Notes under the pieces: generated by a model
Database searches by the model: none
The model's input: only the letters and a program-made list of their open reading frames with translations
Told to the model about the DNA's origin: nothing
Shown: positions 32,753 through 64,000 of the stretch, one piece after another
How positions within the stretch are numbered: the stretch's first letter is position 1
Layout: each line of letters begins with the position of its first letter
Assembly (NCBI GenBank): GCA_003169845.1
Contig: PNAG01000011.1
Location: 29,042 to 93,041, forward strand
Source: Candidatus Dormiibacterota bacterium
Lineage (GTDB): Bacteria; Chloroflexota; Dormibacteria; Dormibacterales; Dormibacteraceae
Length of the DNA stretch: 64,000 bases
Direction of reading: 5' to 3'
Made by a program: the position numbers and the translations under genes

Positions 32753-35700
32753 ATGACTGTGGTGCAAGTGATCAGCAACGCCGGCCTGCGCCGGCTGTCA
32801 AAAGCGCTCGGATTCGGCGTGTTCGCAGCCGCGTGCGTCATCGTGCTCGGCCAGCATCAGGCTTTGCCGGTTGGCGCCGCCGGGCCCACCCCTGAATGTG
32901 GAACCCTGGCGAGCTCCGCCACCTGGAATGCCGCCGGAAGCCCGTATCAGATTTGCTCCTCCACCGGCGTGACGGTCCCATCTGGAATCACGGTCACCCT
33001 CGATGGGTCGGGCGGTCCGGTCCAGGTGCAGGCAGTGGGTTATCAAGGTCTGCAGGTCACAGGCGGCACCATCACGACGGCTGGCACTTCAGCGGCCAAC
33101 AACGTTATCTTCAGCGGCCCCAACACGAACCCAGGCTCGTGGGCAGGCCTGAACTTCCAGTCAGGTAGCACTGCGAATCTGAACAACGTTCGCGTCAGCT
33201 CTGGAAGCTACGGCATCAATGCCAGCAGTGCAGCAGGCGTCACCCTCGCCAACGTCACGATCGATCACAGCCTTAACGACGGGGTTTACTCCAGCACCGG
33301 GCCGTTGACCGTCTCCATCAGCACGATTACCAACTCCGGTGGCAATGCGATCTGGCAGAACAGCGGCTCCCTGACCGTGACCGGAACCAACATCAATACG
33401 GCGGCGACGGCTGGCATCTACTTCAGCGGGAACAGTGCGAACACCGTCAGCGTGACCAACAACACGATCGTCGGCGTCGGCGGCTACGGCATCTACGTTT
33501 CAAATCCGGCGGCCAACCCGTCGGTGAGCAGCAACACCATCATCGACAGCGGGCTGACTGGCAACGCGGCGCCGGCCATCGACCTGCCCAACTACACGGG
33601 CGACCTGATGGGCGCGGTGGGCGGCAACCACGGCTTCGGCAACGGGATGGACGCCATCGCCTTCTCGGGCACGGTGACCACCAACCTGGTCTGGGTCTCG
33701 CCGGCCAACAGCACAGTTGACCATCCACTCGGTTATCTCGCCACCGGCACGATCAACCTGAAGTCGGGCACGACCATGACCGTGCCCCAGGGCTCGGTGG
33801 TCAAGTTCTTGAGCGGCACCCTCAACGCGGTCGGGGCCAGCATCGACGCGACCGACAGCAGCGGCGCCAACGCGCCCAAGATCTTCACCACCTTCCGCGA
33901 CCCGGCCGGCCTCACCACCTGTCCGAGCGTGTTCGTGTCTTCCAGCTGCGGCACGATCAGCTATGACTGGGGTGGCATCAGCATCACCACTGACAACGTG
34001 ACCTCGGTGCAAGGGAACGCCGCCTTCACCAACGCCAGCATCCGCAACAGCTACAGCGACGCCATCTACATCAGCAGCGGCGCCACCACCAACCCGGCCC
34101 TCGTCGCCGGCTTTGGGCTGGTGCTGAACAACACCACGCTCGACCACAACAACAGCGACGCGATCTCCGCCTCGTCCACGCCGGTCTCGGTGACCGGAGG
34201 CACCATCAGCAACACCGGGGGCAACGGCATCACCGCGAGCCAGGGCAGCCTGACTGTGAGCGGCGCCGCCATCACCAACGCGACCGGTGACGGCATCTAC
34301 TTCTATGACAGCAGCACGACCAAAACGGCGATCCTGACCAACAACACTGTCAGCGGCGCCGGCAGCTACGGCATCTATGCGTACGGCGGGAAGGTCAATC
34401 CCATCGTGAGCGGCAACACGATCACCAATAGCGGGCTGACGGGCAACGCGGCGCCGGCCATCGACCTCTCCAACTACACGGGAGACGTGGCCGGCTCGCT
34501 GGTTGGCAACCAGGGTTCTGGCAACGGGATGGACGCGCTTGTCTTCTCCGGCACGGTGACCAACAGCTTTACCTGGCTCTCGCCGACCAACAGTGGCGCC
34601 AACCACCCTCTCGGCTACCTCGCGGGCGGCAGCATCAACCTCGTCACGGGCAAGACCATGACCGTGCCCCAGGGCTCGGTGGTCAAGTTCTCGAGCGGCT
34701 CTTTGAACTTGAACGGGGCCATCCTCGACGCGACCGACACCAGCGGCGTCAACGCACCCAAGATCTTCACGAGCTTCCGCGACCCGGCCGGCCTCATCAC
34801 CTGTCCGAGCGTCTTCGTGTCTAGTACCTGCGGCGTGCCGACCAACGACTGGGGCGGCATCAGCATCACCCAGGACAACGTGACCTCGGCGCGAGGCAGC
34901 GCCGCCCTCACCAACGCCAGCATCCACTACACCTACAGCACCGCCATCTCGATCAGCAGCGGCGCCACCACCAACCCGGCCGGTATCGCCGGCTTTGGGC
35001 TGGTGCTGAATACCACGACCTTGAGCCATCTCGGCGGTGACGGCCTCGACGGAAGCAGTACGTCGGTCTCCGTCAGCAGCTCCACGTTCGATACGATCGT
35101 CGGCAACGCCGCCTACCTCTCCGGGGGCACGAACAGCTTCGTGGGCGACATCGTCCAGAACGTCACCCAGAGCGGATTCGTCTTTCAAGGCGGCACCTCG
35201 AGCTCGGTGATAACCAGCCGGTTCACCAACGTCGGAGGCACCACGACCAGCAACTTCGCTGTGACCGCCGGCAGCCCGGTATCGCTGACTCTCGACTGCC
35301 TCAGCATTCATGCCAACGCGGGTGGCTTCAGCTCCGGATCGACCGGCAACCAGATCTCCAACAGCGACCTCTTCGGCAACACGGGGACCGGCCGTTTCGA
35401 CCTCTACGCCACGTATCCGACTCTCGCGCGCTCCAACTGGTGGGGCCAGGTCGGCGGGCCGGTGGGCGGGCAGACCGGCGGGCCGGGCGCCATCGACTCG
35501 ACGAACCCCCTGACCTCGATTACTCCGACGGTCTCCCTTTCGGAAACCAGCCTCAACACGAACGCGAACGGGTCGCTCGGTTCCGGAACCATGACGGTGA
35601 CCCTGACCTTCAACCGCAAGATGAACACGACGGTGACGCCGGTCGTGACCTACTCTCCCGGCGCCCACCCTGTGACGGCCATCCGGTCAGGGACCGGTTG

Positions 35701-37465
35701 GCAGTCCGACGGTATGACGTGGGTCGGGACGGCAACCATTGACAACAACACCACGACGGGCGCGAATACCATCAATGTCAGCGCTGGGCAAAGCTGCGTA
35801 CCCGAGCCGTCGACGAACTTGATGGCGCCGGCAACCGCCGGCTTCGGCGCCGACCCGACCGGCGTCGCGGCGGCGACCACGTCACCCGCGACCGGTGTCT
35901 TCGATACGGGCGCAACCTTGAACGGAACGGTCAATCCAAACGGCTGGACCACGAACGGTTACTTCCGGCTCGGCACCACGAGCGGAACGTACACGACCAC
36001 GACTTCTATCCAGGCCATGGGCAGCGGCACGACAGCGGCGCCGATCACAGTTGCGGCGACGGGTCTGACCCCGTTCACGACCTACTACTTCACGACGGTG
36101 GCGGTTACCAGCAACGGCTTGAGCTACGGCACGGAGCAGACCTTCGTCACGCCCTCGATCCTGCACTTCCCCGCGCTCATGAACAATGCATACGGCGGCT
36201 ACACGACGACCGTCTACCTTCAGAACAAGAGCGGCGCGGCGCTGGCGCCAGGCGCGATCACCATCACGTATTACGACACGGCGGGAGCGCAGCTGGGCAC
36301 GGGCGATTCGAGCCCGGCGCTCGCCAACGGCGCTGTCTGGAGCGTGCGACAGGACAACGGGCATAGCTTTGTCCCGGGCGGGGCCGGCTCCGGGCGTGTG
36401 AACACGTCGGTTCCCGTGGTCGCCTTCGTCAACCAGGAGATCGCCGGCCAGGACGGCAGCAGCTACAGCGCCTTGCCGGATCCGGCCACTGGCGCCACCG
36501 TGTTTGCACCTGCGGTGATGTACCAGGCGTACGGCGGGTACACAACCGGCTTCGGGATCACCAACACCGGCTCCGCGACCACGACAGTCACTGTGACGTA
36601 TCGCAATCCGGACGGTTCCGCGGTCGCGACCACGCGGACCCAGAGCCTGGCGCCCAACGCGTATTGGGGTCTCTACCAGGGTGAAACAGGCACGCCGCTG
36701 TCCGTGGGTTTCCACGGCACGGCCACCATCACCTCATCTCCTGCGCAGAACCTGGCCGTGATCGTCAACGAGGTGGGCCCCGGTGGCTTCCTCACGTACA
36801 GCGCGACGAACACCGGCGCGACCACCCTTTACGCCCCAGTCGTTTTCAACAACGCGTATGGCGGTTACTTCACAGGAATGGGGATCCAGAACGTCAGCAG
36901 CTCGACCGCCAACGTGACCATCAACTATGCAGGCGGAGCGGCGACATACAGCGAGACATTCACGGTGGCGCCCCACGGGTTCGCGGGAATCTATAACGGA
37001 CCAGGCAACGGGGCCGGGCTGCCGGACGGTTTCGCCGGCAGTGCCGTGATCACCAGCGACCAGCCCCTGGTGGCCATCGTCAACGAAGTGATCAGAAGCC
37101 AGGGCACGAGTTACAACATGATCGCGGCCGGCATCCCCACGGTGCATATGCCCCTGGTCGAAAACTCCGTCAACGGGTTCAGCACCGGGTTCGGCGTTGA
37201 GAACGTCGGCACCGGGTCAGCCACCGTGTCGATCGTGTACTACGACTCCGTGACCGGCGTGCAGGTCGGAACCGGTCCCACGCTCACCCTTGCTCCAGGC
37301 GCGTTCGCCGGCGTCTACCAGGGGCCCGGCGGCGACGGCGGCATCGCGGCCGGAAATACCGCGACGGCCACCATGACCGTCACCAATGCCAGCAACGGCG
37401 GCAAGCTGGCGGTCATCGTCAACCAGCAGAGCGGCACGAGCTTCATGAGCTACAGCGGGCAATAA
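32753..37465 (+). CDS. Secreted right-handed beta-helix protein with C-terminal four-unit YGGY module
   Basis: Signal peptide; 'NTIxxSG..GxGIY' parallel beta-helix repeats; module from about 36161; ends VIVNQQSGTSFMSYSGQ*. Confidence 0.85.
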   Translation: MTVVQVISNAGLRRLSKALGFGVFAAACVIVLGQHQALPVGAAGPTPECGTLASSATWNAAGSPYQICSSTGVTVPSGITVTLDGSGGPVQVQAVGYQGLQVTGGTITTAGTSAANNVIFSGPNTNPGSWAGLNFQSGSTANLNNVRVSSGSYGINASSAAGVTLANVTIDHSLNDGVYSSTGPLTVSISTITNSGGNAIWQNSGSLTVTGTNINTAATAGIYFSGNSANTVSVTNNTIVGVGGYGIYVSNPAANPSVSSNTIIDSGLTGNAAPAIDLPNYTGDLMGAVGGNHGFGNGMDAIAFSGTVTTNLVWVSPANSTVDHPLGYLATGTINLKSGTTMTVPQGSVVKFLSGTLNAVGASIDATDSSGANAPKIFTTFRDPAGLTTCPSVFVSSSCGTISYDWGGISITTDNVTSVQGNAAFTNASIRNSYSDAIYISSGATTNPALVAGFGLVLNNTTLDHNNSDAISASSTPVSVTGGTISNTGGNGITASQGSLTVSGAAITNATGDGIYFYDSSTTKTAILTNNTVSGAGSYGIYAYGGKVNPIVSGNTITNSGLTGNAAPAIDLSNYTGDVAGSLVGNQGSGNGMDALVFSGTVTNSFTWLSPTNSGANHPLGYLAGGSINLVTGKTMTVPQGSVVKFSSGSLNLNGAILDATDTSGVNAPKIFTSFRDPAGLITCPSVFVSSTCGVPTNDWGGISITQDNVTSARGSAALTNASIHYTYSTAISISSGATTNPAGIAGFGLVLNTTTLSHLGGDGLDGSSTSVSVSSSTFDTIVGNAAYLSGGTNSFVGDIVQNVTQSGFVFQGGTSSSVITSRFTNVGGTTTSNFAVTAGSPVSLTLDCLSIHANAGGFSSGSTGNQISNSDLFGNTGTGRFDLYATYPTLARSNWWGQVGGPVGGQTGGPGAIDSTNPLTSITPTVSLSETSLNTNANGSLGSGTMTVTLTFNRKMNTTVTPVVTYSPGAHPVTAIRSGTGWQSDGMTWVGTATIDNNTTTGANTINVSAGQSCVPEPSTNLMAPATAGFGADPTGVAAATTSPATGVFDTGATLNGTVNPNGWTTNGYFRLGTTSGTYTTTTSIQAMGSGTTAAPITVAATGLTPFTTYYFTTVAVTSNGLSYGTEQTFVTPSILHFPALMNNAYGGYTTTVYLQNKSGAALAPGAITITYYDTAGAQLGTGDSSPALANGAVWSVRQDNGHSFVPGGAGSGRVNTSVPVVAFVNQEIAGQDGSSYSALPDPATGATVFAPAVMYQAYGGYTTGFGITNTGSATTTVTVTYRNPDGSAVATTRTQSLAPNAYWGLYQGETGTPLSVGFHGTATITSSPAQNLAVIVNEVGPGGFLTYSATNTGATTLYAPVVFNNAYGGYFTGMGIQNVSSSTANVTINYAGGAATYSETFTVAPHGFAGIYNGPGNGAGLPDGFAGSAVITSDQPLVAIVNEVIRSQGTSYNMIAAGIPTVHMPLVENSVNGFSTGFGVENVGTGSATVSIVYYDSVTGVQVGTGPTLTLAPGAFAGVYQGPGGDGGIAAGNTATATMTVTNASNGGKLAVIVNQQSGTSFMSYSGQ
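33551..35040 (+). repeat. Internal tandem duplication in the beta-helix region (second unit incomplete), period 882 bp (294 aa)
   Basis: GLTGNAAPAID.. at 33551 and 34433; both followed by MTVPQGSVVKF...APKIFT.FRDPAGL.TCPSVFVSS. Confidence 0.85.
36161..37465 (+). repeat. YGGY module, copy 1 (most divergent)
   Basis: ALMNNAYGGYTTTVYLQN / YQAYGGYTTGFGITN / FNNAYGGYFTGMGIQN / NSVNGFSTGFGVEN units; ends FMSYSGQ. Confidence 0.85.
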
Positions 37466-37472
37466 AAGGAAC

Positions 37473-40289
37473 ATGAGCCGGCGATCGCGATTGTCGTCGA
37501 AGATCGTCCGGGTGGTTGTCGGGGCCGTGCTCCTGGTCGGAGTGGCGGTCCCGGCAACCCAGGCCAGGCTGGTCCAACCGGTGCTCGCCAACGTAAGCAC
37601 GGGCTGGACGATGTACCACTACGACAACGCCCACACGGGAAACGACGTAGGCGAGCCTGCGATGACAACCCTGCAGGGGTCGCCGATCCTGTCATCCGCG
37701 CTCGATGAGAATGTCCAGGCAGAGCCGCTCATCTATTCCGGCCTCGTCTTCGCGGCGACCGAAAACAACACCATTTACGCCTTCAACGAGTCGAGCGCCA
37801 CGCTGGCGCTGGTCTGGAAGCGCAACCTGGCGCCGCAGGTTCGCTACAACCCGTACCCGGCCCCGTTCTTTTGCGAAGGGAGCCACCTCGGCCTCACTGG
37901 TGTCGGCATCACGGGCACGCCTGTGATCGACCCGGTCGCCAAGGTCCTCTACGCAGTGGGCCTCACTCCTGACCTCGCGCAGCCGAGCGGAATGAAGTAC
38001 CAGCTGTACCGGGTGCGCATCCTCGACGGGAGCCTTCTCGGACCACCTGTCGATCTCGTTTTCCCTGATATCGATCCAAGGTCGGCCGGCCAGCGCAGCG
38101 CACTCAGCTTCGCGAACGGCAACGTGTACGTCTCGTTCGGGGGTCGGGCTGGAGACTGCAATCCGTATCACCCCATCGTCATCAGCGTGCCCGCCGCTGG
38201 CGGTTCGCCGACCGAGTGGGACGGCCAGAACCCAGCGTTTGGGCCTCCGTGCAGTACCAGCAGCTGCCAGGAGGCCGGAATCTGGGCCTCCGGTGGCATG
38301 GCCGTCGACGGCTCGGGCAACATCTTCCTGGCCACGGGCAACGGTCCGACGAACTGGAACTGCGCCCTCGGCTGGGACCAAGGCGACGCGGTGATCAAGC
38401 TTTCGCCCACGCTGCAGGAGCTCGACCATTTCGCACCGAGCACGTGGTGCACGATGCACCAGACGGACCAGGACATGGGGTCCATCGGTCCGATTCTGCT
38501 TTCCAACAACACGCTGTTCCAGTCGGCCAAGACGGGCCAGGGATGGATCCTCAGCACGACCAACCTCGGCAACACGATCAACGGATCCGTTGGAACTCAC
38601 ATCGCCGGCTGCCCGACTGCCGATGCCGCGTTCGGAAGCTCGGCATGGGATGGAACGAAGATCTACGTCCCGTGCGACGGGTATGGAGTTGTCGGCCTCA
38701 ACGCAGACACCGTCAACAAGACGTTCACGGAAGCATGGGTCACGCCGGGCGGCTACTCCCCTGGACCGCCGATCGTGGCGGGTGGATACGTTTGGGCGAC
38801 TGACCAGGGCGGAGGCACCCTGCACCGCATCAACCCGGCTGATGGAACTGAGACCACGTTCGCGATGGGAAGCGCGGCGCGCTTCAACACGCCGGCCGCC
38901 GACAGCGGCCGCATCTTCGTGGCGCAGAACAGCCCATCCGCGATTCGAGAGCTCAACTTCGGCACTGTCACCCCGCCTTCGCCTCCACTTCCGGTGCTGC
39001 GTGCGGCGCTTCCCGCGATGGCGAACCAGGCTTACGGCGGCTACACCACCTCGGCACTCATCCAGAACGCCGGTAGCGCGCCGGCACGAGTCGTCGTTCT
39101 CTATTTCGACCAGGCCGGCTTCGCGGTGGGCACCGGCGACGTCAACGCATCGTTGCCGGTAAACGCCACCTGGACGGTGAGGCAGGACAGCGGCAGCTCG
39201 TTCAGCGCCGGCGGTGCCGGCTCTGCGCTCATTTACAGCGACCAGCCGCTGGCTGCTTTTGTCAACGAGTCGGCCCCCGGTGGAGCCGATCAGAGCGGCT
39301 ACTCGGCGGTTCAGCTGCCCGGCGGTGCGGGGACGTCTCTCTTCGCGCCGGCTATCGCGAATGGTGCTTACGGCGGATACACCACCGGCATCGGATTGAT
39401 CAACCTGAGCTCCAGCGCGACGAACCTCACGGTGACCTATCGCGACAGCTCAGGCGCCCTCATCAAAACTCAGACGGTACCCAACCTGGCCGGCAACGCC
39501 TACGCCAGCCTGTACAGCGGCGACGCGGTGCTCGCTTTGCCGGCCGGATTCGCCGGCACGGCCACGATTGCGAGCTCGGCTGGCACGGTCGCCGCGATCG
39601 TCAACGAGACCGGGCCCGGCGGACAGTTCAGCTCCTACGACGCAGTCTCCGCGGGCGGCGCGAACCTCTACTCGCCTGTCGCGCTGAACAATTCAAACGG
39701 CGGCTACTACACCGGCATGGGAATCCAGAACACTACGGGCACCGCGGGCACGGTGACGATCAACTACTACGACACCACCGGTGCTGCAACGACGACGACC
39801 CATCCGATACCGGCCAACGGTTACCTCGGGGTGTACCAGGGGACTGACATCGCGATAGCAGGCGCGTACACGGCCAAGCTCACGAGCACCGTTGCGGTCG
39901 CGGCGATCGTGAACGAGGTAGCGCCATCGGCCACCAGCGCTAAACAGTCGAGCGCGTTCAACACGTTTGCGTCGGGCAGCGCGGCCCTTCACCTGCCGCT
40001 GGTCGAGAACGCGGGGTCTGATGGATGGAGCACCGGCGAAGGGATCATGAACGCGGGCACGGCGGCGGCCACTGTGACGGTGACCTACTACGACACCGCC
40101 ACGGGCGCCCAGGTCGGCTCGCCGCAGAGCAATCTGCTCCAACCGAACGCCTTTTGGGGCTTGTTCCAGCCGGCCGGAGGCCTGGCGGCGGGTATCCGCG
40201 CGACCGCCGTGGTCACGACCTCAGGCCAGGTCGCGGTGATCTGCAACGAAAGCAATGCCTCCACGTTCATGAGCTACTTGGGTGAGTAA
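37473..40289 (+). CDS. Secreted PQQ-like beta-propeller protein with YGGY module
   Basis: 'GWTMYHYDNAHTGNDVGEPAMTTLQGSPILSSALDENVQAEPLIYSGLVFAATENNTIYAFNESSATLALVWKRN' PQQ-like; module from about 38994; 7 nt after the previous stop. Confidence 0.87.
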   Translation: MSRRSRLSSKIVRVVVGAVLLVGVAVPATQARLVQPVLANVSTGWTMYHYDNAHTGNDVGEPAMTTLQGSPILSSALDENVQAEPLIYSGLVFAATENNTIYAFNESSATLALVWKRNLAPQVRYNPYPAPFFCEGSHLGLTGVGITGTPVIDPVAKVLYAVGLTPDLAQPSGMKYQLYRVRILDGSLLGPPVDLVFPDIDPRSAGQRSALSFANGNVYVSFGGRAGDCNPYHPIVISVPAAGGSPTEWDGQNPAFGPPCSTSSCQEAGIWASGGMAVDGSGNIFLATGNGPTNWNCALGWDQGDAVIKLSPTLQELDHFAPSTWCTMHQTDQDMGSIGPILLSNNTLFQSAKTGQGWILSTTNLGNTINGSVGTHIAGCPTADAAFGSSAWDGTKIYVPCDGYGVVGLNADTVNKTFTEAWVTPGGYSPGPPIVAGGYVWATDQGGGTLHRINPADGTETTFAMGSAARFNTPAADSGRIFVAQNSPSAIRELNFGTVTPPSPPLPVLRAALPAMANQAYGGYTTSALIQNAGSAPARVVVLYFDQAGFAVGTGDVNASLPVNATWTVRQDSGSSFSAGGAGSALIYSDQPLAAFVNESAPGGADQSGYSAVQLPGGAGTSLFAPAIANGAYGGYTTGIGLINLSSSATNLTVTYRDSSGALIKTQTVPNLAGNAYASLYSGDAVLALPAGFAGTATIASSAGTVAAIVNETGPGGQFSSYDAVSAGGANLYSPVALNNSNGGYYTGMGIQNTTGTAGTVTINYYDTTGAATTTTHPIPANGYLGVYQGTDIAIAGAYTAKLTSTVAVAAIVNEVAPSATSAKQSSAFNTFASGSAALHLPLVENAGSDGWSTGEGIMNAGTAAATVTVTYYDTATGAQVGSPQSNLLQPNAFWGLFQPAGGLAAGIRATAVVTTSGQVAVICNESNASTFMSYLGE
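38994..40289 (+). repeat. YGGY module, copy 2
   Basis: AALPAMANQAYGGYTTSALIQN ... ENAGSDGWSTGEGIMN ... FMSYLGE. Confidence 0.88.
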
Positions 40290-40314
40290 CTGATCTAAGT
40301 CCATGGCGCTCGCC

Positions 40315-40797
40315 TCAGGCGGCCTGGAACACGAGCTGGAAGTCAGCCTCCACGAGCTCGCGACGCTCGACCCTCACCGTTTGTGGGGCCCCTAACAAAG
40401 CCAGGCTCTGCGGCTGAACAACTCGCACCGTGTAGGTGCCAGCCGTGACGCGGGCCGAATAGTGGCCGCTGGCGTCGGTGATCACGCTCGTCACGCTTCG
40501 GCTGCCGGCGTCCAGCTCAACCTGCGCGCCGGCAACGGGCCGGAAAATGCACGGTCGGGGAGGGCCCAGCGGCGGGGGGCCGCCACACGCGAGGAGCTGC
40601 ACGGTGCCCACCACAGTGCCGGTCTTGCCTATCGCCTTTGCGTGCTCCGAACCGTGTTGACCCTGGTACGTGAGGTCGTTGACGAAACTCGCCATCGCAA
40701 CGCTGGGAAGGGCAACCATCGAGCCCACCACGATGGAACCCGCCGCAGCCAACGGCAAAGCGTGGCGGCGGAGATTGAGTGGCAAGCTACTGGCCAA
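40315..40797 (-). CDS. Secreted carboxypeptidase-regulatory/Cna-B-like single-domain protein
   Basis: Signal-like N-terminus; 'PVAGAQVELDAGSRSVTSVITDASGHYSARVTAGTYTVRVV'; TTG start inside the end of the upstream ORF. Confidence 0.7.
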   Translation of the reverse strand: MASSLPLNLRRHALPLAAAGSIVVGSMVALPSVAMASFVNDLTYQGQHGSEHAKAIGKTGTVVGTVQLLACGGPPPLGPPRPCIFRPVAGAQVELDAGSRSVTSVITDASGHYSARVTAGTYTVRVVQPQSLALLGAPQTVRVERRELVEADFQLVFQAA

Positions 40798-42083
40798 CGT
40801 AGCTCATGAATGACGTGCCGTTGGACTCGTTGCAGATCACTGCTACCTGTCCGCCGCTCGTGGTCACGACCGCGCTCGCACGAACTCCGGTCGGCAGCCC
40901 GCCCGCCGGTTGATAAAGGCCCCAGAACGCGTTTGGCTGCAGGGACAGGCTCTGTGGCGTACCGACGGCCGCTCCGCTCACGGTGTCGTAATAGGTGACG
41001 GTGACAATCGTTGCCGTCGAGCCGGTGTTCATGATCCCTTCGCCGGTGCTCCAGCCGTCGCTGCCGGCGCTTTCAACCAGCGGCAGGTGCAGGGTCGCGC
41101 TGCCCGAGGCAAACGTGTTGTAGGCGGTGGACTGCTGGGCGCTGGTGGTCGAGGGCGCCACCTCGTTGACGATCGCCGCGATGGCGACCGAGGCCGTGAT
41201 CCTGGCTGTGTAAGCCCCGTCGGCGGCGATGTCGGTGCCCTGGTAGACGCCGAGGTAGCCGTTGGCCGCGATCGACGCGGTGCTCGTGGTCGCGGCGCCG
41301 TTCGAGTCGTAGTAGTTGATCGTCACGGTGCCGGCGGTGCCGGTCGTGTTCTGGATGCCCATGCCGGTGTTGTATCCGCCGTACGCGTTTCGCAGGGCGG
41401 CGGGGGCAAACAGGCTCGTGCTGCCCGACGGCACCGCGTCGTACGAGCTGAACTGGCCGCCCGGCCCTGTCTCGTTGACGACCGCGGCAAGAGCGCCCGC
41501 AGAGCTCGTTATGGTCGCCGTGCCGGCGAATCCGCTGGGCAGAGCAAGCGCGGCGTCTCCGCTGAACAAGCCCAGATACGCGCCAGCAGCGACTCCCGGT
41601 GTCGTCTGGGATTTGACGATGGATCCCGAGCCGTCGCGGTACGTAACCGTGACGTTGGCGGCCGCGGCGCTGACGTTGACCAGCCCGATCCCGGTGGTGT
41701 AGCCGCCATACGCGTTGTTCACGATCGTTGGCGCAAAGAGCGTGGTCCCGCCGCCGCTCGGAAGGCTGATGGACGTGTAGCTGGTGGCGTCGCCGCCGCC
41801 GGGCGCGAACTCATTGACGAAAGCCGCGACCGGCTGGTTCGAAAAGACCACGGCCGACCCGGCCTGGCCGGAAGAAAAACCGTGGCCGTTATCCTGGCGG
41901 ACCGTCCAGGTTGCGTTGGCGGGCAGGGACGCGATCGCGTCACCGCTTCCTACCGAGCTTCCACTGCTGCCGGAGTAGGCGATGGAAACCGCTGCTGATC
42001 CACTGCCGGCATTCTGGATCTCAGTGACGGTCGTGTAGCCGCCGTACGCCGCATCCGCCATCGCGGGCAAGACCGCGACGGCG
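40787..42083 (-). repeat. YGGY module, copy 3
   Basis: VLPAMADAAYGGYTTVTEIQN ... FMSYVGQ*. Confidence 0.88.
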
Positions 42084-53795: not shown

Positions 53796-53903
53796 GTTCA
53801 CCCCGGTGAGGTGGGGTCTGCCCTGGGCCGCGACCGGTGAAGCGATCAGGGTCAACGCAGTCGCCAACATCAACGAAGCAGAGCGCAAGCGCATCAGTGC
53901 CAC
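52494..53903 (-). CDS. Secreted protein consisting of a signal peptide plus a bare YGGY module
   Basis: Signal peptide 'LMLATALTLIASPVAAQG' followed within ~15 aa by ALMNSAYGGYTTAIYIED; four units; ends LMSYNGQ*. Confidence 0.87.
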   Translation of the reverse strand: MALMRLRSASLMLATALTLIASPVAAQGRPHLTGVNGLSAVLPALMNSAYGGYTTAIYIEDVSHSALAAHVSIQYFDSNGTLTGAGDVTPSAGIPFWGEWTVRQDNGNSFMPGVAGWGQVTSNTEVAIFVNEFAPGGMDGSSYTSIQMPVGGGTTLFAPAIVNNAYGGYTTGVGLNNTSATMTTATVTYRDQSGTAVKMQSVTLPAHGYAGLFSGDSTLALPSGFAGTATIASDGGVLAGIVNEVGPGGQFSSYDAVSAGASTLYAAAALNNAYGGYTTGMGIQNTTGTAGMVTVTYYDGSGVSAASVTKPIAANGYLAIYQGGTDGPPASATGYTAAITGTVGIAAIVNETAPGGMQSTSYNGEPTASGWLSLALVENAGSDGWSTGLGIVNVTNAAVTFTLVYFDAQTGVLISSTSLTLAAHAYLGRYTPSDLPAGKRATAWLTGPAALAAICNEQSASSLMSYNGQ

Positions 53904-53995
53904 CTCCTCAGGTGAAGGTCAGGGTCACTGTGAGTACGGCGGGCGGTTACAGTCGAAGAACGAGCTCACGCGCCTGCACCTAGAATCGCGTCTCG

Positions 53996-55009: not shown

Positions 55010-55053
55010 CGTTTTGTCGTAATTGGTTCGCGGCCGGCTTGGTGGGAGATAAG

Positions 55054-57198
55054 ATGACGCGCCAGCAGCCAACACGGTCCGAACGCAACGAGTCGGGGCC
55101 CATGTGCCGCTGCCAAGGAGGAGGTCGGGTGTCCAGTCCCAAGTGGCGCGGTTGGCCGGCTTTCCTGTCGCACGGGCTGGCAGCCGTCATCGCCTCAACA
55201 GGAGCCGTGGTTTTCACGGTTGTACCCGTACACGCGAGCCTCCCCCAGGGTGTCGACGTGTCCAATTTCAACGGCACGGTCAACTGGAGCCAGGTGGCGG
55301 GCGGCGGGTACTCGTTCGGATACGCGAAGGCGACCGAGAGCAACAACTTCACCGACTCGACGTTCTCAGCCAACTGGGCCGGGATGAAAGCCAACGGGAT
55401 ATCGCGAGGGGCCTACATGTTCTGGCGCGGCAACGTGGATCCCGCCGTGGAGGCAGATTACTTTCTTCAGCAGTTGGACGGCGCCGGCTTTACGCCCACG
55501 GACCTGGCGCCGATGATCGATGTTGAGGTTACCGACGGTCTGAGCGCCGCGACCATCGCCGCCTACCTCCACACCACGGTCAATGTGATCCACGGGGCCC
55601 TCGGTGTGTGGCCGGTCATCTATACGTCCTATTTGTTCTGGGTCGGCAGCGTGGGCAATGACGCGACGTTCACCGCCGATCCCCTATGGATCGCCCTATG
55701 GGCGACCAATCCGCCGCCGACGACGCAGGTGCCCGCGACCAACTGGGGCGGCAATGGCTTCAGGATCTGGCAGAAGAGCGGCACCGGCGTCGTGCCAGGC
55801 ATCACAACGGTTGCCGATCTCGATCAGACCAGCGGGGCCCCGCTCCCGCTGATTGGGCCAGGGCCGATCCAGGCCGTGCTCCCCGCCGTGTCCAACGGTG
55901 CGTATGGCGGCTATGTGACAGCGGCCACGATCCAGAACACGAGCTCCTCAACCGCCATCGTTCACATCGCTTACTTCGACCAGACCGGGGCTCCGGTCGG
56001 CGCCGGCGACGCCAACCTCAGCCTGCCGGTGAACGCCAGCTGGACGGTGCGCCAGGACAACGGCAACTCTTTCCCCAGCACTGGAGGGGACGCAGTGCAG
56101 GCCGGCTCCGCAGTCGTCTACAGCTTCCAGCCGGTCGTGGCGTTCGTCAACGAGTTCGCGCCCGGCAACGTGGGTGACGCGACGAGCTACAGCGGGGTGC
56201 AGGTGCCCAGTGGTGTCGGCACCCCGCTCTACGCGCCGACCATCGTCAACAATGCCTACGGCGGCTACACAACCGGCATCGGCCTGCTGAATGAGGGCAC
56301 GGGCGCGACCGACGTGACCATCACCTACCGCGACGGCAGCGGCGCCGTCGTCAAGACCCAAACCGTGACTGCGTTGGCTGCTCACGCCTACCACGCGCTC
56401 TACAGCGGCGACGCAATCCTGGCACTGCCGAACGGCTTTGCGGGGACGGCGACGATGACCAGCTCGGCGGCGCAGCCGCTGGGCGCAATCGTCAACGAGA
56501 CTGGACCGGGTGGACAGTTCAGCTCCTACGACGCGATGCCCGCCAGGAGCAGCCTGCTCAGCGTGCCGGTGGCGCTCAACAACGCATTCGGTGGCTACTA
56601 CACCGGGATGGGGATCCAGAACACCTCGGCAAGCGCGGGCACGGTGTCCGTCACCTATTACGACGCCTCGGGGGCGGCCACCGCCAAGAGCTTCAGCATC
56701 CCCGCCAACGGCTCCCTCGGTGTCTACCAGGGCAGCGCCACCGACGGGCCAGCGGTCGGCGCCTACACGGCGGTGATCCAGAGCTCGACCGTGGGCCTGG
56801 CGGCGATCGTCAACGAGGTCGCGCCGGCCGGTGCGGGGTCGGCAAGTCAGTCGACCTCCTACAACACCTTCAGCGACCTCAGCGGAAGCCTCCACCTGCC
56901 TCTGGTTGAGAACGGCGGCTCCGACCCCTGGAACACCGGCGAGGGGATCATGAATACCGGCTTCAGCAGCACCATGGTCACCGTCAACTACTACGACAGC
57001 GTCACTGGCGCAGCCATCGGCACTGCACCGACGCAAACGCTTGCGCCAAATGCCTTTTGGGGTCTGTACCAGCCCACCGGCGGACTGCCCAGCGGCAAGC
57101 GAGCAACGGCAGTGATCACCACCTCCTCCGGGGGCTCGGTGGCTGTCATCTGCAACGAGAGCAGCACCACGACTTTCATGAGCTACGACGGGCAGTAA
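55054..57198 (+). CDS. Secreted GH25-family lysozyme with YGGY module
   Basis: 'QGVDVSNFNGTVNWSQVAGGGYSFGYAKATESNNFTDSTFSANWAGMKANGISRGAYMFW...LAPMIDVEV' GH25; module from about 55868; ORF opens at 54823. Confidence 0.9.
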   Translation: MTRQQPTRSERNESGPMCRCQGGGRVSSPKWRGWPAFLSHGLAAVIASTGAVVFTVVPVHASLPQGVDVSNFNGTVNWSQVAGGGYSFGYAKATESNNFTDSTFSANWAGMKANGISRGAYMFWRGNVDPAVEADYFLQQLDGAGFTPTDLAPMIDVEVTDGLSAATIAAYLHTTVNVIHGALGVWPVIYTSYLFWVGSVGNDATFTADPLWIALWATNPPPTTQVPATNWGGNGFRIWQKSGTGVVPGITTVADLDQTSGAPLPLIGPGPIQAVLPAVSNGAYGGYVTAATIQNTSSSTAIVHIAYFDQTGAPVGAGDANLSLPVNASWTVRQDNGNSFPSTGGDAVQAGSAVVYSFQPVVAFVNEFAPGNVGDATSYSGVQVPSGVGTPLYAPTIVNNAYGGYTTGIGLLNEGTGATDVTITYRDGSGAVVKTQTVTALAAHAYHALYSGDAILALPNGFAGTATMTSSAAQPLGAIVNETGPGGQFSSYDAMPARSSLLSVPVALNNAFGGYYTGMGIQNTSASAGTVSVTYYDASGAATAKSFSIPANGSLGVYQGSATDGPAVGAYTAVIQSSTVGLAAIVNEVAPAGAGSASQSTSYNTFSDLSGSLHLPLVENGGSDPWNTGEGIMNTGFSSTMVTVNYYDSVTGAAIGTAPTQTLAPNAFWGLYQPTGGLPSGKRATAVITTSSGGSVAVICNESSTTTFMSYDGQ
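55868..57198 (+). repeat. YGGY module, copy 7
   Basis: AVLPAVSNGAYGGYVTAATIQN ... FMSYDGQ*. Confidence 0.88.
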
Positions 57199-57241
57199 AG
57201 GTCCGGCAAGGGCTGCGAGGATCCGCCTGGGAGGATTTAGT

Positions 57242-59929
57242 GTGTTAGCGCCGGGCCTGATCAGGTTTCGTTCAGCTGTCGTGCTCGTCGCCGTGCTCGG
57301 CGCGATCGTGGTTCCAGCGCGCATCGCTACCGCCGCCACGATCTCTGTGAATTGTTCCACGCAGAACCTGCAGACCGCGATCAGCAGCGCCGCGTCAGGA
57401 GACACGATTCTCATCTCCGGCACGTGCGTGGGATCGAGCTCCGGCTCAGCATTCACGATCAGCGGGAAGAGCCTGACTCTTGCGGGTGCGCCGCACGCAA
57501 CGTTGCGGGGCAGCGTCTCCGCTCGAGTGCTGGTGATCAACGGTCCGGCCAATGTCACCCTCAGCGATCTGACCATCAGCGGCGGAACTGCGTCCGCAGA
57601 TGGGGGAGGCATCGACAACCTTTCAACACTCACTGTTTTGCGCACCACGGTCAGCGGTAACGCTGCCCCAGCCGGTTACGGTGGGGGAATCGCGAATGCG
57701 CTCGCCAGCTCGCTGACGCTCACGCACTCCACGGTGAGCGGAAACAGCGCAGCTCTCGGCAGCGGTGCCGTCGACAACCAGGGCACGTTGGTTGTCATCG
57801 ATTCCACGCTGTACGGCAACACGGCGGGGGACGTCACGAATCCTGGTTACGGCGGAGCCATGTGGAACGCGGCTGGCACCGCCACGTTCACGAATTCCAC
57901 AGTCGTCAACAACTCATCCAACACCGACGGCGGAGGCATCTACAACATTGCCACCATGAATCTTGCGGGCACTATCGTGGCCGGAAATACGTCGTCCGGG
58001 ACCCTCGGCACGCGCGACTGTTCCAATCCGGCGGGCTCGCACGTGTCCTCCGGCGGATACAACTTCATCGGCCCGTGCGCCGGGTTTGTGCCGGTGTCAA
58101 CTGACCTGACCGGCCAGCCGATTGCTCCCATGGCGGCCTTTGGTAACAATGGGGGTCCGACTCAGACCGTGCCACCCGCTGCAGGCACTGTCCTGATTGA
58201 TGCAATCCCGAGCAGCGCCTGCACCACTTTGCTGGGCGTGGCGCCGGACGACCAGCGTGGGGTGCGGCGCCCTCAAGGTGCCGGATGCGATATCGGCGCG
58301 GTGGAGACGGCGCCCCTGCCCAACGCCGTGAACGATTCCTACTCGACCCCCGAGAACATCGCCCTCTCCGTGGGTTCGTCCGGTGGAGTTCTGCAGAATG
58401 ATTTCACTGTCACTGGCGGAAGCCTCAGCGCTTCGATAGTCTCGAGTCCGGCGCACGGCTCCGTCAGCCTCGGATCGGACGGGTCATTCACTTACACCCC
58501 CACATCGGGCTACACCGGCCCCGACTCGTTCACGTATAAAGCGACCGACTCCTTTACGAACGAGTCGGCAAACGCAACAGCAAACGTCTCCGTGACCCTA
58601 CCCGCGCGGGCAGTGTTCCCGGCCATGTCCAACGGGGCTTACGGTGGATACGTGACGGCGGCCACGATCCAGAACATCGGAACGGCAGCCGCCAACGTTG
58701 TCATCGATTACTTCAATCAGAACGGGGCGCCGGTAGGCGCCGGCGATGCCAACACCGGCCTGCCGGTGAACGCCAGCTGGACGGTGCGCCAGGACAACGG
58801 CAACTCCTTTCCGAGCAGCGGTGGGGACGCCGCCCAGGCGGGCTCCGCCGTGGTCTACAGCAGCCAGCCCATCGCCGCCTTCGTGAACGAGTTCGCACCC
58901 GGCAACGTAAGTGACGCAACGAGCTACAGCGGAGTGCAGGTTCCCGGTGGTGTGGGCACCACGCTGTACGCGCCGACCATCGTCAACAATGCTTACGGCG
59001 GATACACGACCGGAATCGGCTTGCTCAACCAGGGCAGCGGCCCGACGGATGTGACCATCACCTATCGCGACGGCACCGGAGCCATCGTCAAGACCCAGAC
59101 CGTGGCCGCGCTCGCTGCTCACGCCTACCATGCGCTCTACAGCGGGGACGCCGTCCTCGCACTGCCCAGCGGCTTTGCCGGGACGGCGACGATCACGAAC
59201 TCGGCGGCGCAGCCGCTGGGTGCGGTCGTCAACGAAACAGGGCCCGGGGGACAGTTCAGCTCTTACGACGCCGTGCCTGCGGGCAGCACGCTGCTCAACG
59301 TGCCGGTGGCGCTGAACAATGCCTTCGGCGGCTACTACACGGGGATGGGGATCCAGAACACATCGGCCAATGTGGGAATCGTGACCGTCACCTATTACGA
59401 CGCCTCCGGGACGGCCACCGGCAAGGTCTTCAGCATCGCCGCCAACGGTTCCCTTGGCGTCTACCAGGGCAGCGCCACCGACGGGCCGGCGGCCGGCGCC
59501 TACACGGCGACGATCACGAGCTCGGTCGCCATCGCCGGTATCGTCAACGAGGTGGCGCCTTCGAGCACCAGCGCCATGCAGTCGACCTCTTACAACGCAT
59601 TCAACGCCGGCAGCGCCAGCCTCAACCTGCCCCTGGTCGAGAACGCAGGCAGCGACCCCTGGAACACGGGTGAAGGGATCATGAACACGGGCACCGCCAG
59701 CACCACGGTTACTGTCACCTATCGCGACATTGTCACCGGCGCATTGGTCGGCACAGTGCAGACGCAAACGCTGGCGCCACATGCCTTCTGGGGCCTGTAC
59801 CAGCCGACCGGCGGCCTGCCGGGCGGAACGCGGGCGACGGCGGTGATCACCACCTCCTCGGGTGGCCAGGTCGCGGTGATCTGCAACGAGAGCAGCACGA
59901 CCACCTTCATGAGCTACGACGGCCAGTAG
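57242..59929 (+). CDS. Secreted POMP/right-handed beta-helix plus cadherin-like (Big_9-like) protein with YGGY module
   Basis: 'LTVLRTTVSGNAAPAGYGGGIANALASSLTLTHSTVSGNSAALGSGAVDN', 'VNDSYSTPENIALSVGSSGGVLQNDF...GSDGSFTYTPTSGYTGPDSFTYKATDS'; module from about 58604. Confidence 0.87.
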   Translation: MLAPGLIRFRSAVVLVAVLGAIVVPARIATAATISVNCSTQNLQTAISSAASGDTILISGTCVGSSSGSAFTISGKSLTLAGAPHATLRGSVSARVLVINGPANVTLSDLTISGGTASADGGGIDNLSTLTVLRTTVSGNAAPAGYGGGIANALASSLTLTHSTVSGNSAALGSGAVDNQGTLVVIDSTLYGNTAGDVTNPGYGGAMWNAAGTATFTNSTVVNNSSNTDGGGIYNIATMNLAGTIVAGNTSSGTLGTRDCSNPAGSHVSSGGYNFIGPCAGFVPVSTDLTGQPIAPMAAFGNNGGPTQTVPPAAGTVLIDAIPSSACTTLLGVAPDDQRGVRRPQGAGCDIGAVETAPLPNAVNDSYSTPENIALSVGSSGGVLQNDFTVTGGSLSASIVSSPAHGSVSLGSDGSFTYTPTSGYTGPDSFTYKATDSFTNESANATANVSVTLPARAVFPAMSNGAYGGYVTAATIQNIGTAAANVVIDYFNQNGAPVGAGDANTGLPVNASWTVRQDNGNSFPSSGGDAAQAGSAVVYSSQPIAAFVNEFAPGNVSDATSYSGVQVPGGVGTTLYAPTIVNNAYGGYTTGIGLLNQGSGPTDVTITYRDGTGAIVKTQTVAALAAHAYHALYSGDAVLALPSGFAGTATITNSAAQPLGAVVNETGPGGQFSSYDAVPAGSTLLNVPVALNNAFGGYYTGMGIQNTSANVGIVTVTYYDASGTATGKVFSIAANGSLGVYQGSATDGPAAGAYTATITSSVAIAGIVNEVAPSSTSAMQSTSYNAFNAGSASLNLPLVENAGSDPWNTGEGIMNTGTASTTVTVTYRDIVTGALVGTVQTQTLAPHAFWGLYQPTGGLPGGTRATAVITTSSGGQVAVICNESSTTTFMSYDGQ
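58604..59929 (+). repeat. YGGY module, copy 8
   Basis: AVFPAMSNGAYGGYVTAATIQN ... FMSYDGQ*. Confidence 0.88.
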
Positions 59930-59966
59930 GCGGGTTCGCTGATCGCGGCAGGCGCGGAGCTACCCA

Positions 59967-59994
59967 TTGACAGGGAGCCTCGACAACTTACACT
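59967..59994 (+). promoter_or_regulatory. Candidate sigma70-like promoter upstream of 60049
   Basis: TTGACA-N16-TACACT. Confidence 0.45.
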
Positions 59995-60048
59995 TGCGTC
60001 CAGCGCGCCAATCCGGCCATCGACTAAAGCGTGGGGAGGGTCCGGGGC

Positions 60049-63000
60049 ATGAACCTAAGGCGATGGCGTGTCGTGTTGTGCGCCGTGCTGTTGGCCGGAG
60101 GGTCAACATTCGTGGGCCCGCCCGCGCTGGCGGCCGGCTCACCGCTGACCTGGGCCGCTCCGGTGCGCATCGACCACCAACCGCCGTTTACGGGCGCTTT
60201 TTTGAGTGGCCTGTCGTGTCCCACGACCGGCCTCTGCGTCGCCGTGGACACCAACGGCAACGTGATCACCTCAACCAACCCCACCGGGGGTGCGGCGGCC
60301 TGGACGGTGACCCACGTGGATGGCGTCAATCCCATTCTTGCCGTTTCATGTCCCACCACCAGCTTCTGCGTAGCAGTGGACGAAGCCGGTGACGTGATCA
60401 CGTCCACCAACCCGACTGGGGGTGCGGCGGCCTGGACGGTGGCCAACGTTGGCACAGCGATGGGAGCCGTGTCATGTCCCAGCAGCGTCCTATGCGTCGC
60501 ACTGGACTTCAGCGGCGACGTGGTCACTTCGACCAATCCCACCGGAGGTCCTTCGGCCTGGACTGCCTCCAACATCGGCAGCGGCACCTTGAATTTCCTC
60601 GACGGCATTTCGTGTCCAGCCAGCAACCTTTGCGTTGCTGTCGACCAGTACGGCAACGTGATCACCTCCACCGACCCGACCGGAGGTTCTGCCGCCTGGA
60701 CTACGACGAACGTATCGGGACTCAACGGTATGTATTCGGTGTCCTGTCCCACCAGCAGCCTCTGCGTAGCCGGCGACGCGAACGGCGATGTCGTCACGTC
60801 GACCAACCCCACCGGCGGGGCAGGGGCCTGGACGGTGACCACAGTGGACGCCTCCAACGGTCTGTTCTCAGTGTCCTGTTCCAGCAGCGCCCTATGCGCG
60901 GCGGTCGACTATAGGGGCACAGTGGTCACCTCGACCGATCCCACCGGGGGAGCGGCGGCCTGGACGGCGGTCAACGTCGACGGAACCCATCGACTGTTCG
61001 GAGTGTCATGCCCCAGCACCAGTCTCTGTGTTGCGGTCGACGACGTCGGCAACGTGGTCACCTCGACCGATCCCACCGGGGGAGCGGCGGCCTGGACAGT
61101 GACCAGCGTGGACGGCACAGACTCGCTCACAGGCGTGAGTTGCCCCAGCAGCGCTCTGTGCGTCGCCGTCGATGCCACCGGCCACGTCGTCACAACAACC
61201 AACCCGATCGGGGGCGCCGCTGCCTGGTCTGCTGCCCTGGTAGACATGGGCAGCGGACTGAATGGCGTGTCGTGCAGCGGCACCGCACTCTGTGTCGCCG
61301 TGGACGGCGGCGGCAACGTGGTCACTTCGACCAATCCCACCGGTGGTGCGGGGGCGTGGACGCTGACCCACGTGGACAGCGCTGCGTACCCTTTGCTGTC
61401 GGGCGTTTCCTGTCCGACGACCTCGCTCTGCATAGCAGTGGACGAAAGCGGAAATGTGGTCACGTCTACCAACCCGACCGGGGGTGCGGCGGCCTGGACG
61501 GTGACCCCAGCCGGCACGGATGCGGGCAGTATCCTGTACGGCGTTTCTTGTCCCACCACCGGCCTGTGCGTCGCCGTGGACGGAAACCGCAATGTGGTCA
61601 CGTCTACCAACCCCACTGGGGGTGCGGCAGCCTGGACGGTGACCCAGGTGGACAGCCAACCGCAGGGATATCTGGTTGGCGTGTCGTGTCCGACGATCAA
61701 CTTCTGCGCGGCGGTCGCCGCCGTGGGCGACGTGGTCACGTCCACCAATCCCACTGGCGGGACAGCGGCGTGGACGCAGATCAACGTAGAAAGCCCCCCG
61801 TTTACGATCCTTAATGGAATCTCCTGTCCCAGCAGCGGCCTTTGCGTCATCGTCGACCGCGGTGGCAACGTCTTCACTTCCACCGATCCCACCGGCGGGG
61901 CGGCGGCCTGGACGCGGACCAACGTGAACCTTTACAGCCTCAGCGCAGTGTCCTGTCCTGGGAGCGGCCTTTGCGTCGCCGTCGACATTGTGGGTAATGC
62001 AGTCGTCGGAAGCCTGGGGACGACCACTGCGCTGGTGTCCTCGTCGAACCCGTCGACTGTCGGCAGCAACGTTACCTACACGGCGACCGTATCCCCGACT
62101 CCTGATGGAGGCACAGTGGCCTTCACCGACAACGCCGCCAGCATCAGCGGCTGCGGCGCGGTGGCAGTCAACACGACCACCGGGAAGGCAAGCTGCATCA
62201 CGAGCTACAGCGCAACAGGCAGCCGCGCCATTGTCGCGACTTACAGCGGCGACGCGAGCTTCACGACCTCCAGCGGATCCCTGACCCAGACCGTGAATGC
62301 AGCTGTTGTGGCGAAGGCTGTGCTGCCGGCGGTGTCTAACGGTGCGTATGGGGGATACACCACAGCGGCAACCGTTCAGAACACCGGCTCGGCGCCGGCC
62401 AGTGTCCACATCACCTATTACGACCAAAGCGGCGCGCCGGTGGGCGCTGGGGACGCGATCAACAACCTGCCAGTGAACGCGAGCTGGACGGTGCCCCAGG
62501 ACAACGGCAACTCATTCCCATCCAGCGGCGGCGATGCGGCCCAGGCCGGCTCGGCGATCGTGTACTCGGACCAGCCGGTGGCGGTGTTCGTCAACGAGTT
62601 CGCGCCGGGCAATGTCGGTGATGCCAGCAGCTACAGCGGGGTGCAGATAGCGAGTGGGGTGGGGACGACGCTCTATGCCCCCGCCATCGCCAACAATGCC
62701 TACGGTGGATATACCACCGGCATCGGCTTGCTGAATGAGGGCAGCAGCCCGACCGACGTGACCCTCACCTACCGCGATAGCACCGGCGCCATCGTCAAGA
62801 CCAAGACCGTCTCCGCTCTGGCCGCGCACGCCTATCAGGGGCTGTTCAGCGGCGATACAAGCCTCGCCCTACCCAATGGCTTTGCCGGGACGGCGACCAT
62901 CGCGAGCTCGGGCCAGCCGCTGGGCGCCATCGTCAACGAGACCGGACCGGGCGGGCAGTTCAGCTCCTACGACGCTGTGCCGGCAGGCAGCACGACGCTC

Positions 63001-63627
63001 AACGCCCCGGTCGCGCTGCGCAACGCCTTCGGCGGCTTCAACACCGGGATGGGAATCGTGAACACAACCGGCACGGCCGGCTCTGTAACGATCACTTACT
63101 ACAACGCCTCCGGCACGCCGACCATCAAGCCCTTCAACATCCCGGCCAACGGCTACCTCGGCGTCTACCAGGGCACTGACATACCAACTGACGGCGCCTA
63201 CACGGCCAAGATCACGAGCTCGGTTGCCATCGCGGCGATCGTCAACGAGGTGGCGTCATCGAGCGGCAGCGCCCAGCAGTCGACTTCCTACAACACCTAC
63301 AGCGCCGGCAGCGCAACCCTCCACTTGCCGCTGGTCGAGAACGCGGGCACCGACCCGTGGAACACCGGTGAGGGAATCATGAACACCGGCGCCGGCAGCA
63401 TCACGGTCACCGTCAATTACTACAACACCGCCACCGGCGCATCGGTCGGCTCACCACAGACGCAGACGCTGGCGGCGAATGCGTTCTGGGGTCTCTACCA
63501 GCCCACGGGTGGACTGCCGACCGGAACGCGTGCGACGGCCGTGATCACAACCTCCTCCGGGGGGCAGGTGGCAGTGATCTGCAACGAAAGCAGCCTCACG
63601 ACTTTCATGAGCTACGACGGCCAGTAG
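60049..63627 (+). CDS. Secreted protein with ~14 'SCPTTxLCVAVDxxGNVVTSTNPTGGAAAWTV' repeats, Ig-like domain and YGGY module
   Basis: Signal peptide; repeat array 60204..~62010; Big_3-like 'SSNPSTVGSNVTYTATVSPTPDGGTVAFTDNAASISGCGAVAVN'; module from about 62311. Confidence 0.87.
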   Translation: MNLRRWRVVLCAVLLAGGSTFVGPPALAAGSPLTWAAPVRIDHQPPFTGAFLSGLSCPTTGLCVAVDTNGNVITSTNPTGGAAAWTVTHVDGVNPILAVSCPTTSFCVAVDEAGDVITSTNPTGGAAAWTVANVGTAMGAVSCPSSVLCVALDFSGDVVTSTNPTGGPSAWTASNIGSGTLNFLDGISCPASNLCVAVDQYGNVITSTDPTGGSAAWTTTNVSGLNGMYSVSCPTSSLCVAGDANGDVVTSTNPTGGAGAWTVTTVDASNGLFSVSCSSSALCAAVDYRGTVVTSTDPTGGAAAWTAVNVDGTHRLFGVSCPSTSLCVAVDDVGNVVTSTDPTGGAAAWTVTSVDGTDSLTGVSCPSSALCVAVDATGHVVTTTNPIGGAAAWSAALVDMGSGLNGVSCSGTALCVAVDGGGNVVTSTNPTGGAGAWTLTHVDSAAYPLLSGVSCPTTSLCIAVDESGNVVTSTNPTGGAAAWTVTPAGTDAGSILYGVSCPTTGLCVAVDGNRNVVTSTNPTGGAAAWTVTQVDSQPQGYLVGVSCPTINFCAAVAAVGDVVTSTNPTGGTAAWTQINVESPPFTILNGISCPSSGLCVIVDRGGNVFTSTDPTGGAAAWTRTNVNLYSLSAVSCPGSGLCVAVDIVGNAVVGSLGTTTALVSSSNPSTVGSNVTYTATVSPTPDGGTVAFTDNAASISGCGAVAVNTTTGKASCITSYSATGSRAIVATYSGDASFTTSSGSLTQTVNAAVVAKAVLPAVSNGAYGGYTTAATVQNTGSAPASVHITYYDQSGAPVGAGDAINNLPVNASWTVPQDNGNSFPSSGGDAAQAGSAIVYSDQPVAVFVNEFAPGNVGDASSYSGVQIASGVGTTLYAPAIANNAYGGYTTGIGLLNEGSSPTDVTLTYRDSTGAIVKTKTVSALAAHAYQGLFSGDTSLALPNGFAGTATIASSGQPLGAIVNETGPGGQFSSYDAVPAGSTTLNAPVALRNAFGGFNTGMGIVNTTGTAGSVTITYYNASGTPTIKPFNIPANGYLGVYQGTDIPTDGAYTAKITSSVAIAAIVNEVASSSGSAQQSTSYNTYSAGSATLHLPLVENAGTDPWNTGEGIMNTGAGSITVTVNYYNTATGASVGSPQTQTLAANAFWGLYQPTGGLPTGTRATAVITTSSGGQVAVICNESSLTTFMSYDGQ
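60204..62010 (+). repeat. SCP-LC repeat array (13 full plus 1 partial units, 42-46 aa each)
   Basis: Unit consensus SCPTTxLCVAVDxxGNVVTSTNPTGGAAAWTVTxVD. Confidence 0.9.
62311..63627 (+). repeat. YGGY module, copy 9
   Basis: AVLPAVSNGAYGGYTTAATVQN ... FMSYDGQ*. Confidence 0.88.
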
Positions 63628-63630
63628 GAG

Positions 63631-64000
63631 ATGAAACTGAAGCGCTGGCGTGTGGTGCTCTGCGCCGCCCTGCTGGCGGGAGGGTCAACATTCGTGGGCC
63701 AGCCCGCGCTGGCGGCCGGCTCGCCGCTGACGTGGGCCGCACCTGTGCGTATCGTCCATCAGCCGCCGTTTACGAGCACGAACCTCAATGGAATGTCGAC
63801 AATCGCGGGCACGATCACCGAGTTCCCGATACCGAACAGCAACAGTAGCCTGACTGATATCGCCAAGGGCCCGGATGGCAACCTCTGGTTCACCGGACTC
63901 ATAAGTGGAAAGGTCGGGCGGATCACGACCGGCGGTGCGAGCACCGAGTTTCCCATTCCGAGCGCCGGTGGGCCCAATGGCATCGCCGCCGGACCGGATG
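63631..64000 (+). CDS. Secreted Vgb-like propeller protein, truncated by window end (probable tenth family member)
   Basis: MKLKRWRVVLCAALLAGGSTFVGQPALAAGSPLTWAAPVRI near-identical to the 60049 N-terminus, then 'ITEFPIPNSNSSLTDIAKGPDGNLWFTGLISGKVGRITTGG'. Confidence 0.85.
   Translation, partial: MKLKRWRVVLCAALLAGGSTFVGQPALAAGSPLTWAAPVRIVHQPPFTSTNLNGMSTIAGTITEFPIPNSNSSLTDIAKGPDGNLWFTGLISGKVGRITTGGASTEFPIPSAGGPNGIAAGPD

Follow-up and report, generated by a model that had tools for sequence, protein, structure and literature searches.

A C-terminal array of four Ig-like units joined to many unrelated heads in a soil Chloroflexota bacterium: a candidate surface-retention module

The window, a 64,000-nucleotide stretch (C26:29042-93041) from the genome of an uncultured soil Chloroflexota bacterium, contains between positions 32,753 and 64,000 nine complete genes whose products differ in their N-terminal part (the head) and end in a common array of four units (the tail). 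Gene A (32753..37465, plus strand; tail 36155-37465) has a beta-helix head of the NosD type and carries the most divergent tail of the nine, with 45-49% identity to the other eight. It is followed on the same strand by gene B (37473..40289; tail 38997-40289), with a PQQ-type (PQQ_2) propeller head. Genes C (40787..43102; tail 40787-42082) and D (43089..45371; tail 43089-44378) lie on the minus strand and overlap by 14 bp; the head of C comprises FxLYD and fn3 domains (Pfam/NCBIfam), that of D is an unrelated propeller of the Vgb-lyase type, and their tails are 84% identical. Also on the minus strand are gene E (49537..51588; tail 49537-50865), whose head has no Pfam match, and gene F (52494..53903), which consists of a signal peptide and the four-unit tail only, the layout of head-less proteins in other Chloroflexota. 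The last three genes are found on the plus strand. Gene G (55054..57198; tail 55867-57198) has a GH25 head and opens a run of 17 array genes in the same orientation, reaching C26:139559. Gene H (57242..59929; tail 58604-59929) has a choice-of-anchor Q and bacterial Ig head, and its tail is 89% identical in protein and 85% in DNA to that of an RCC1-headed protein on contig C21. Gene I (60049..63627; tail 62311-63627) combines a repeat propeller with a Big_3_5 domain. Only the start of the next array gene (63905..64000, plus strand; C26:92946-95921, Vgb-type head) is included before the window edge. All nine genes of the initial annotation are thus present as ORFs, with the reservation that its starts for A (32753), G (55054) and I (60049) are later choices within ORFs which open at 32636, 54823 and 60031, respectively.

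Glycan-type genes are found among the array genes. Between D and E, these are a SAM methyltransferase (45368..46138, minus strand), a second methyltransferase-like ORF (46116..46970, plus), which resembles a gene of the same kind close to a head-less array gene of genome G187 (39.5% identity, E 3e-47), and a GT4-type glycosyltransferase (46862..48256, plus). A hydrophobic ORF without a Pfam match (48110..49489, minus) is possibly, judging from its sequence, a membrane glycosyltransferase. Gene F is flanked by a probable secreted or lipoprotein ORF without a Pfam match (51620..52390, minus) and by a further methyltransferase (53996..55009, plus).

The region is specific to this lineage. The first 22 kb of the window are collinear with contig C4 of a genome of the same genus (G002), with most proteins 84-98% identical; genes up to position 31137 have neighbours in G002, and the rest of the window (31138..64000, no strand assigned) has none. 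In G002, ~40 bp beyond the homologue of C26:59432-60178 comes that of C26:161.3 kb and then that of C26:184 kb, and collinearity is back at C26:195-238 kb, so that ~135 kb around the array run here correspond to a few kilobases there. Similarly, in G005, a genome of the same family, ~100 bp separate the homologue of C26:60.2-61.6 kb (DUF2079) from that of C26:155-156 kb. The array was not found in two genomes of the same genus and is present in 4 of the 110 genomes of the class. Two of these four are soil MAGs of another family, one of which encodes tailed proteins with RCC1, YCF48, and NHL heads; since both are fragmented at the arrays, their copy numbers are lower bounds. Bordering the lineage-specific region on its left (window 29766-31137), an ECF-type sigma factor gene is followed by an AMIN-like membrane ORF; both are conserved in G002 and could be a regulatory pair. 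Further to the left, the stretch at 22088-29726, beside tRNA-Ser (22155-22246), measures ~7.6 kb here and ~1 kb in G002, and contains a gene for a CAP-domain protein (27167-28933) which has no array. A bacterial serpin is encoded at 150-1385 (PF00079, E 7e-72).

The tail of ~430 residues is the exact C-terminal end in 9/9 window proteins, and the last 429-443 residues of these proteins align end to end with identities of 45-84%, which agrees with the initial description of nine secreted proteins with a common C-terminal array. No significant similarity was detected between the nine head regions. A profile of the nine tails identified 37 intact tailed proteins and one fragment in the genome. 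In all 37 full copies the array is located at the extreme C terminus, with nothing after it, and the chains mostly end in ..FMSYDGQ. Every one of the 37 has four units, a number also kept in most distant fusions. When the 37 copies are compared, units taken from matching positions share 69-74% identity and units from different positions 30-41%; the division into four units recognized earlier is confirmed by this difference, which also shows positions 1-4 to be non-interchangeable and indicates that the array is propagated as one block of four. A hydrophobic core is present in the scanned N-terminal stretch of 35/37 tailed proteins, and it resembles a signal peptide in 31-33 of them; the remaining starts are truncated or uncertain (C14_252534, C14_255496, C21_120263, and C26_92946, the last with an undetermined base).

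The 37 proteins amount to 37,531 residues (3.0% of the genome) and are encoded on 7 of the 29 contigs. As proposed from the window alone, the genes are clustered: 23 of them form a single ~78-kb run (C26:61.7-139.6 kb) extending beyond the window. From C26:83.9 kb onward, 17 array genes share strand direction and several overlap by 4-14 bp, which suggests co-transcription. The heads, typed with Pfam and NCBIfam (the repeat-propeller and RCC1 labels of members that were not individually scanned derive from BLAST to scanned members), comprise RCC1 (11), SCP-LC-type repeat propellers (6), YCF48/BNR (3), Vgb (3), PQQ (2), and 12 others. The latter are single cases of beta-helix, FxLYD with fn3, GH25, CAP, choice-of-anchor Q with Ig, 20 TIG domains, seven Calx-beta domains, and no head at all, together with four heads without assignment. 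Beta-propellers account for about two thirds of the heads. The earlier count of nine different heads is correct within the window but understates the set, in which head types recur. Just after the array gene at C26:102289-104928, the sequence from G000:C26:104931 onward (L041) has a start resembling a repeat-propeller signal peptide; the next called gene is of the RCC1 type, and a gene remnant may be present at 104931.

The tail behaves as a cassette. In the protein pairs compared whose heads are unrelated, the tails share 82-85% DNA identity; this similarity is lost, down to background (~50%), within the 60 bp preceding the tail and straight after the stop codon. The closest tail is often found on a protein of a different head type, so the constant tail with exchangeable heads, which had been proposed from the window, holds for the larger set. 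The mean tail identity is 80% for proteins with the same head vs. 70%, and whole-gene duplication has therefore occurred too. For tails at least 80% identical in protein the median dS is 0.61, and the median dN/dS is 0.17. The tails are of old divergence and under purifying selection, and head exchange is thus an evolutionary process, not a rapid switch. Rapid head switching by phase variation was rejected, as the closest tail pairs still differ at 21% of four-fold sites. In 36/37 tails the nearest neighbour differs between the units, and some units stand out as much more similar than the others (for two C14 copies, unit 4 is 96% identical). This pattern is suggestive of gene conversion, although much of it may be noise, given the many copies of nearly equal similarity. 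The set shows clearly how, in nature, a single cassette can come to be combined with many unrelated domains within one genome.

AlphaFold2 models calculated from the 37-tail alignment (pLDDT 91, pTM 0.90) and from a separately built alignment of 12 arrays from distant Chloroflexota (pLDDT 91, pTM 0.89) are confident, which carries no information on binding. The former is all beta, with about eight strands per unit, and the predicted tail is composed of four Ig-like beta-sandwiches with confident packing. With its tandem beta-sandwich units, in the models and in the Ig-like PDB matches, the array belongs among Ig-like repeats. The best PDB match of a single unit is TM1070 of Thermotoga maritima (1nc7), with a TM-score of 0.71-0.76 by target length and probability 1.00; TM1070, however, is a single domain with 13-16% identity to the unit, and it does not have the four-unit arrangement. 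The top match of the whole array is an adhesin extender repeat (6xi3), with no common global arrangement, and the four-unit arrangement does not occur among the PDB matches listed (global TM <= 0.22). A sequence search of the PDB with the nine-tail profile gave no match.

Matches to the full-array profile at E <= 1e-15 are present in 98 of 400 Chloroflexota genomes, representing 66 of 224 genera; the candidates scored per genome were capped in number, and the copy numbers from this survey are lower bounds. In hhalign, the arrays of this genome and distant Chloroflexota arrays align end to end in the full unit order (100% probability, E 2e-56). Two of the distant arrays exceed the curated cut-off of DUF5719 (PF18986), with 35.2 and 30.8 bits vs. 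26.2, whereas the Pfam scan of the nine window proteins gave no match to this family at E<=0.1; the arrays of this genome are connected to DUF5719 through intermediates of the same four-unit order and not by direct match. The initial statement that the array cannot be placed in a named family needs qualification, since the distant arrays reach DUF5719, itself a domain of unknown function. The literature search returned no paper naming DUF5719. G143, G272, and G174 encode four-unit arrays with subtilase, GH39/GH10-like, and other heads; head-swapped arrays thus recur in other genomes, and the array is not simply an ordinary dispersed domain. In many other Chloroflexota genomes it forms a head-less secreted protein of about 440-520 residues present in few copies, unlike the clustered, head-swapped set described here, and this head-less form is probably the ancestral one. 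Searches of viral contigs returned pattern matches only and no true relative of the array, and plasmid records searched with one head-less protein gave no match. With a commonplace fold class, and a family whose outer members already carry a DUF name, the array is a variation on a known theme and not a new category. Within the literature searched, head exchange on this scale and a link to glycan genes across the phylum seem not to have been described.

This link was examined at 18 head-less loci from 18 genomes, using the six nearest ORFs, with other regions of the same contigs as controls (for one locus, L216, the greedy ORF set lacked the array ORF, and the locus was centred on its coordinates). 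Methyltransferase domains occur in 20 of 106 neighbouring proteins vs. 2 of 105 in the controls (Fisher p 5e-5, with the ORFs of one locus treated as independent, as in all the neighbour counts), GT1-type glycosyltransferases in 12 of 106 vs. at most 1 of 105, and GT2 in 11 of 106 vs. 2 of 105. Searches with the methyltransferases and GT4 from the window found a relative at 14/18 head-less loci and 2/18 controls. The same methyltransferase and glycosyltransferase classes are seen in the window between genes D and E and beside F, and the right part of the ~135-kb region encodes a sugar transferase, a polysaccharide-synthesis dehydratase, a GT4 enzyme, and a protein with a weak match to MurJ (flippase). 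The nearby glycan genes could, however, represent a general surface locus rather than point to a glycan that binds or modifies the array.

Taken together, these features are consistent with a mechanism in which the head-tail proteins would be exported via Sec-type signal peptides, the rigid four-unit tail would hold them at the surface, most likely through a surface glycan, and the head (mostly beta-propellers, but also beta-helices, GH25, CAP, and TIG and Calx-beta stacks) would be displayed. A head-less secreted tail beside methyltransferase and glycosyltransferase genes was probably the start, with the tail copied 37 times in this lineage and joined to new heads. That the tail serves to retain proteins at the surface, in association with a surface glycan which the neighbouring genes produce, and presents the heads, seems to us a reading with about an even chance of being correct. 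The more specific proposal, namely a dedicated and so far undescribed Chloroflexota surface-retention system with the glycan of the neighbouring methyltransferase and glycosyltransferase genes as its partner and a 37-member display set in this genome, is put forward more tentatively. The earlier suggestion that the array itself may be the localisation or assembly signal fits the data and is plausible. LPXTG and SLH motifs had been reported as missing, and indeed LPXTG occurs in 0/37 proteins within the last 60 residues, while SLH (PF00395) is absent from the Pfam scans of the array proteins and from the whole genome (positive controls gave matches in 4 genomes). Five sortases are encoded, so another anchoring route is available in this bacterium.

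Several known systems resemble the array in part. SLH and CWB2 modules are terminal blocks in which the units differ from one another and their number is constant; they occur with many heads and have as ligand a wall polymer made by nearby genes. The array is similar in its fixed-unit terminal block, varied heads, and nearby polymer genes, but it consists of four units with an Ig-like beta fold, where SLH and CWB2 have three with other folds, and SLH is absent from the genome. Type IX CTDs and PEP-CTERM are constant C-terminal sorting regions found on many heads; unlike the array they are short, and they are linked to machinery of the outer membrane or to exosortase machinery; no type IX CTD model was matched in the Pfam or NCBIfam scans. 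Sortase substrates also use a C-terminal element (LPXTG) for surface display, and sortases exist here, but the 37 tailed proteins lack this element and end in the array.

A different reading is that the array builds a self-assembling, S-layer-like coat, in which the head-less form would make the layer, headed forms would co-assemble, and the glycan genes would glycosylate it, so that tail-tail contacts and not a glycan would hold the proteins in place. Head-less secreted proteins of four units alone in many Chloroflexota, the fixed unit positions, and the confidently predicted rigid packing speak for it, as does the lattice-like protein layer imaged on the Chloroflexota species Litorilinea aerophila (PMC13319060); that paper describes DUF11 hooks and a layer whose protein it does not identify, and does not describe the array. 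Against it, 37 diverged tails (mostly <90% identical) would need to fit one common lattice; we consider the coat rather improbable. It is unlikely, too, that the array is a mere Ig-like stalk or linker as in bacterial adhesins, spread by ordinary domain shuffling and having no sorting or retention role. Its units are Ig-like, the best tandem-array match is the adhesin extender repeat 6xi3, and secreted proteins often use Ig-like repeats as spacers; such spacers, however, usually vary in number and sit between head and anchor, whereas here four units are kept in 37/37 copies and most distant fusions, their order is conserved across the phylum, and the tail is always C-terminal in this genome and exists alone as a secreted protein.

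The initial annotation saw in the locus the logic of a polymorphic effector or toxin system, a constant trafficking module with variable effectors, and the constant-plus-variable architecture and the clustering are compatible with it. This comparison did not survive, and we judge it very improbable: no toxin domains were found among the heads searched (Pfam/NCBIfam), most heads are beta-propellers, genes overlapping by 4-14 bp leave no room for immunity genes between those pairs, and the tails show old divergence under purifying selection (dN/dS 0.17, dS 0.61). Polymorphic toxins (PMC3482391) also have one constant and one variable part, but there the constant part is N-terminal, the toxin part is C-terminal and variable, and an immunity gene is adjacent; the array proteins vary N-terminally and lack these features. 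An assembly or binning artefact, with repeated copies or a foreign contig in the metagenome bin, is hardly credible even in a genome of 29 contigs with some array copies near contig ends, since no two tails are identical (which excludes assembly duplication), the copies lie on 7 contigs, and misbinning was rejected by the collinearity with G002 at window 1-22 kb and again at C26:195-238 kb of the same contig.

As a surface-retention module the tail would be usable for display engineering, if retention is true, and a phylum-wide module found alone by glycan genes or fused to dozens of heads is a concrete candidate in cultured species. Three further observations concern the gene neighbourhoods. 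A sortase match (G000:C13:300461-300874, L153) is located ~4 kb from the CAP-headed array gene at C13:304337-306577. Related small ORFs, at least one of them lipoprotein-like, adjoin head-less array genes in four genomes (L211:6505-7086, L212:8612-9145, L215:8929-9417, and L216:8331-8840) and are a possible partner. A family of hydrophobic membrane proteins is also encoded beside head-less array genes (L209:9665-10600, with relatives in 8 loci), and some of its members match the LPG-synthase TM region.
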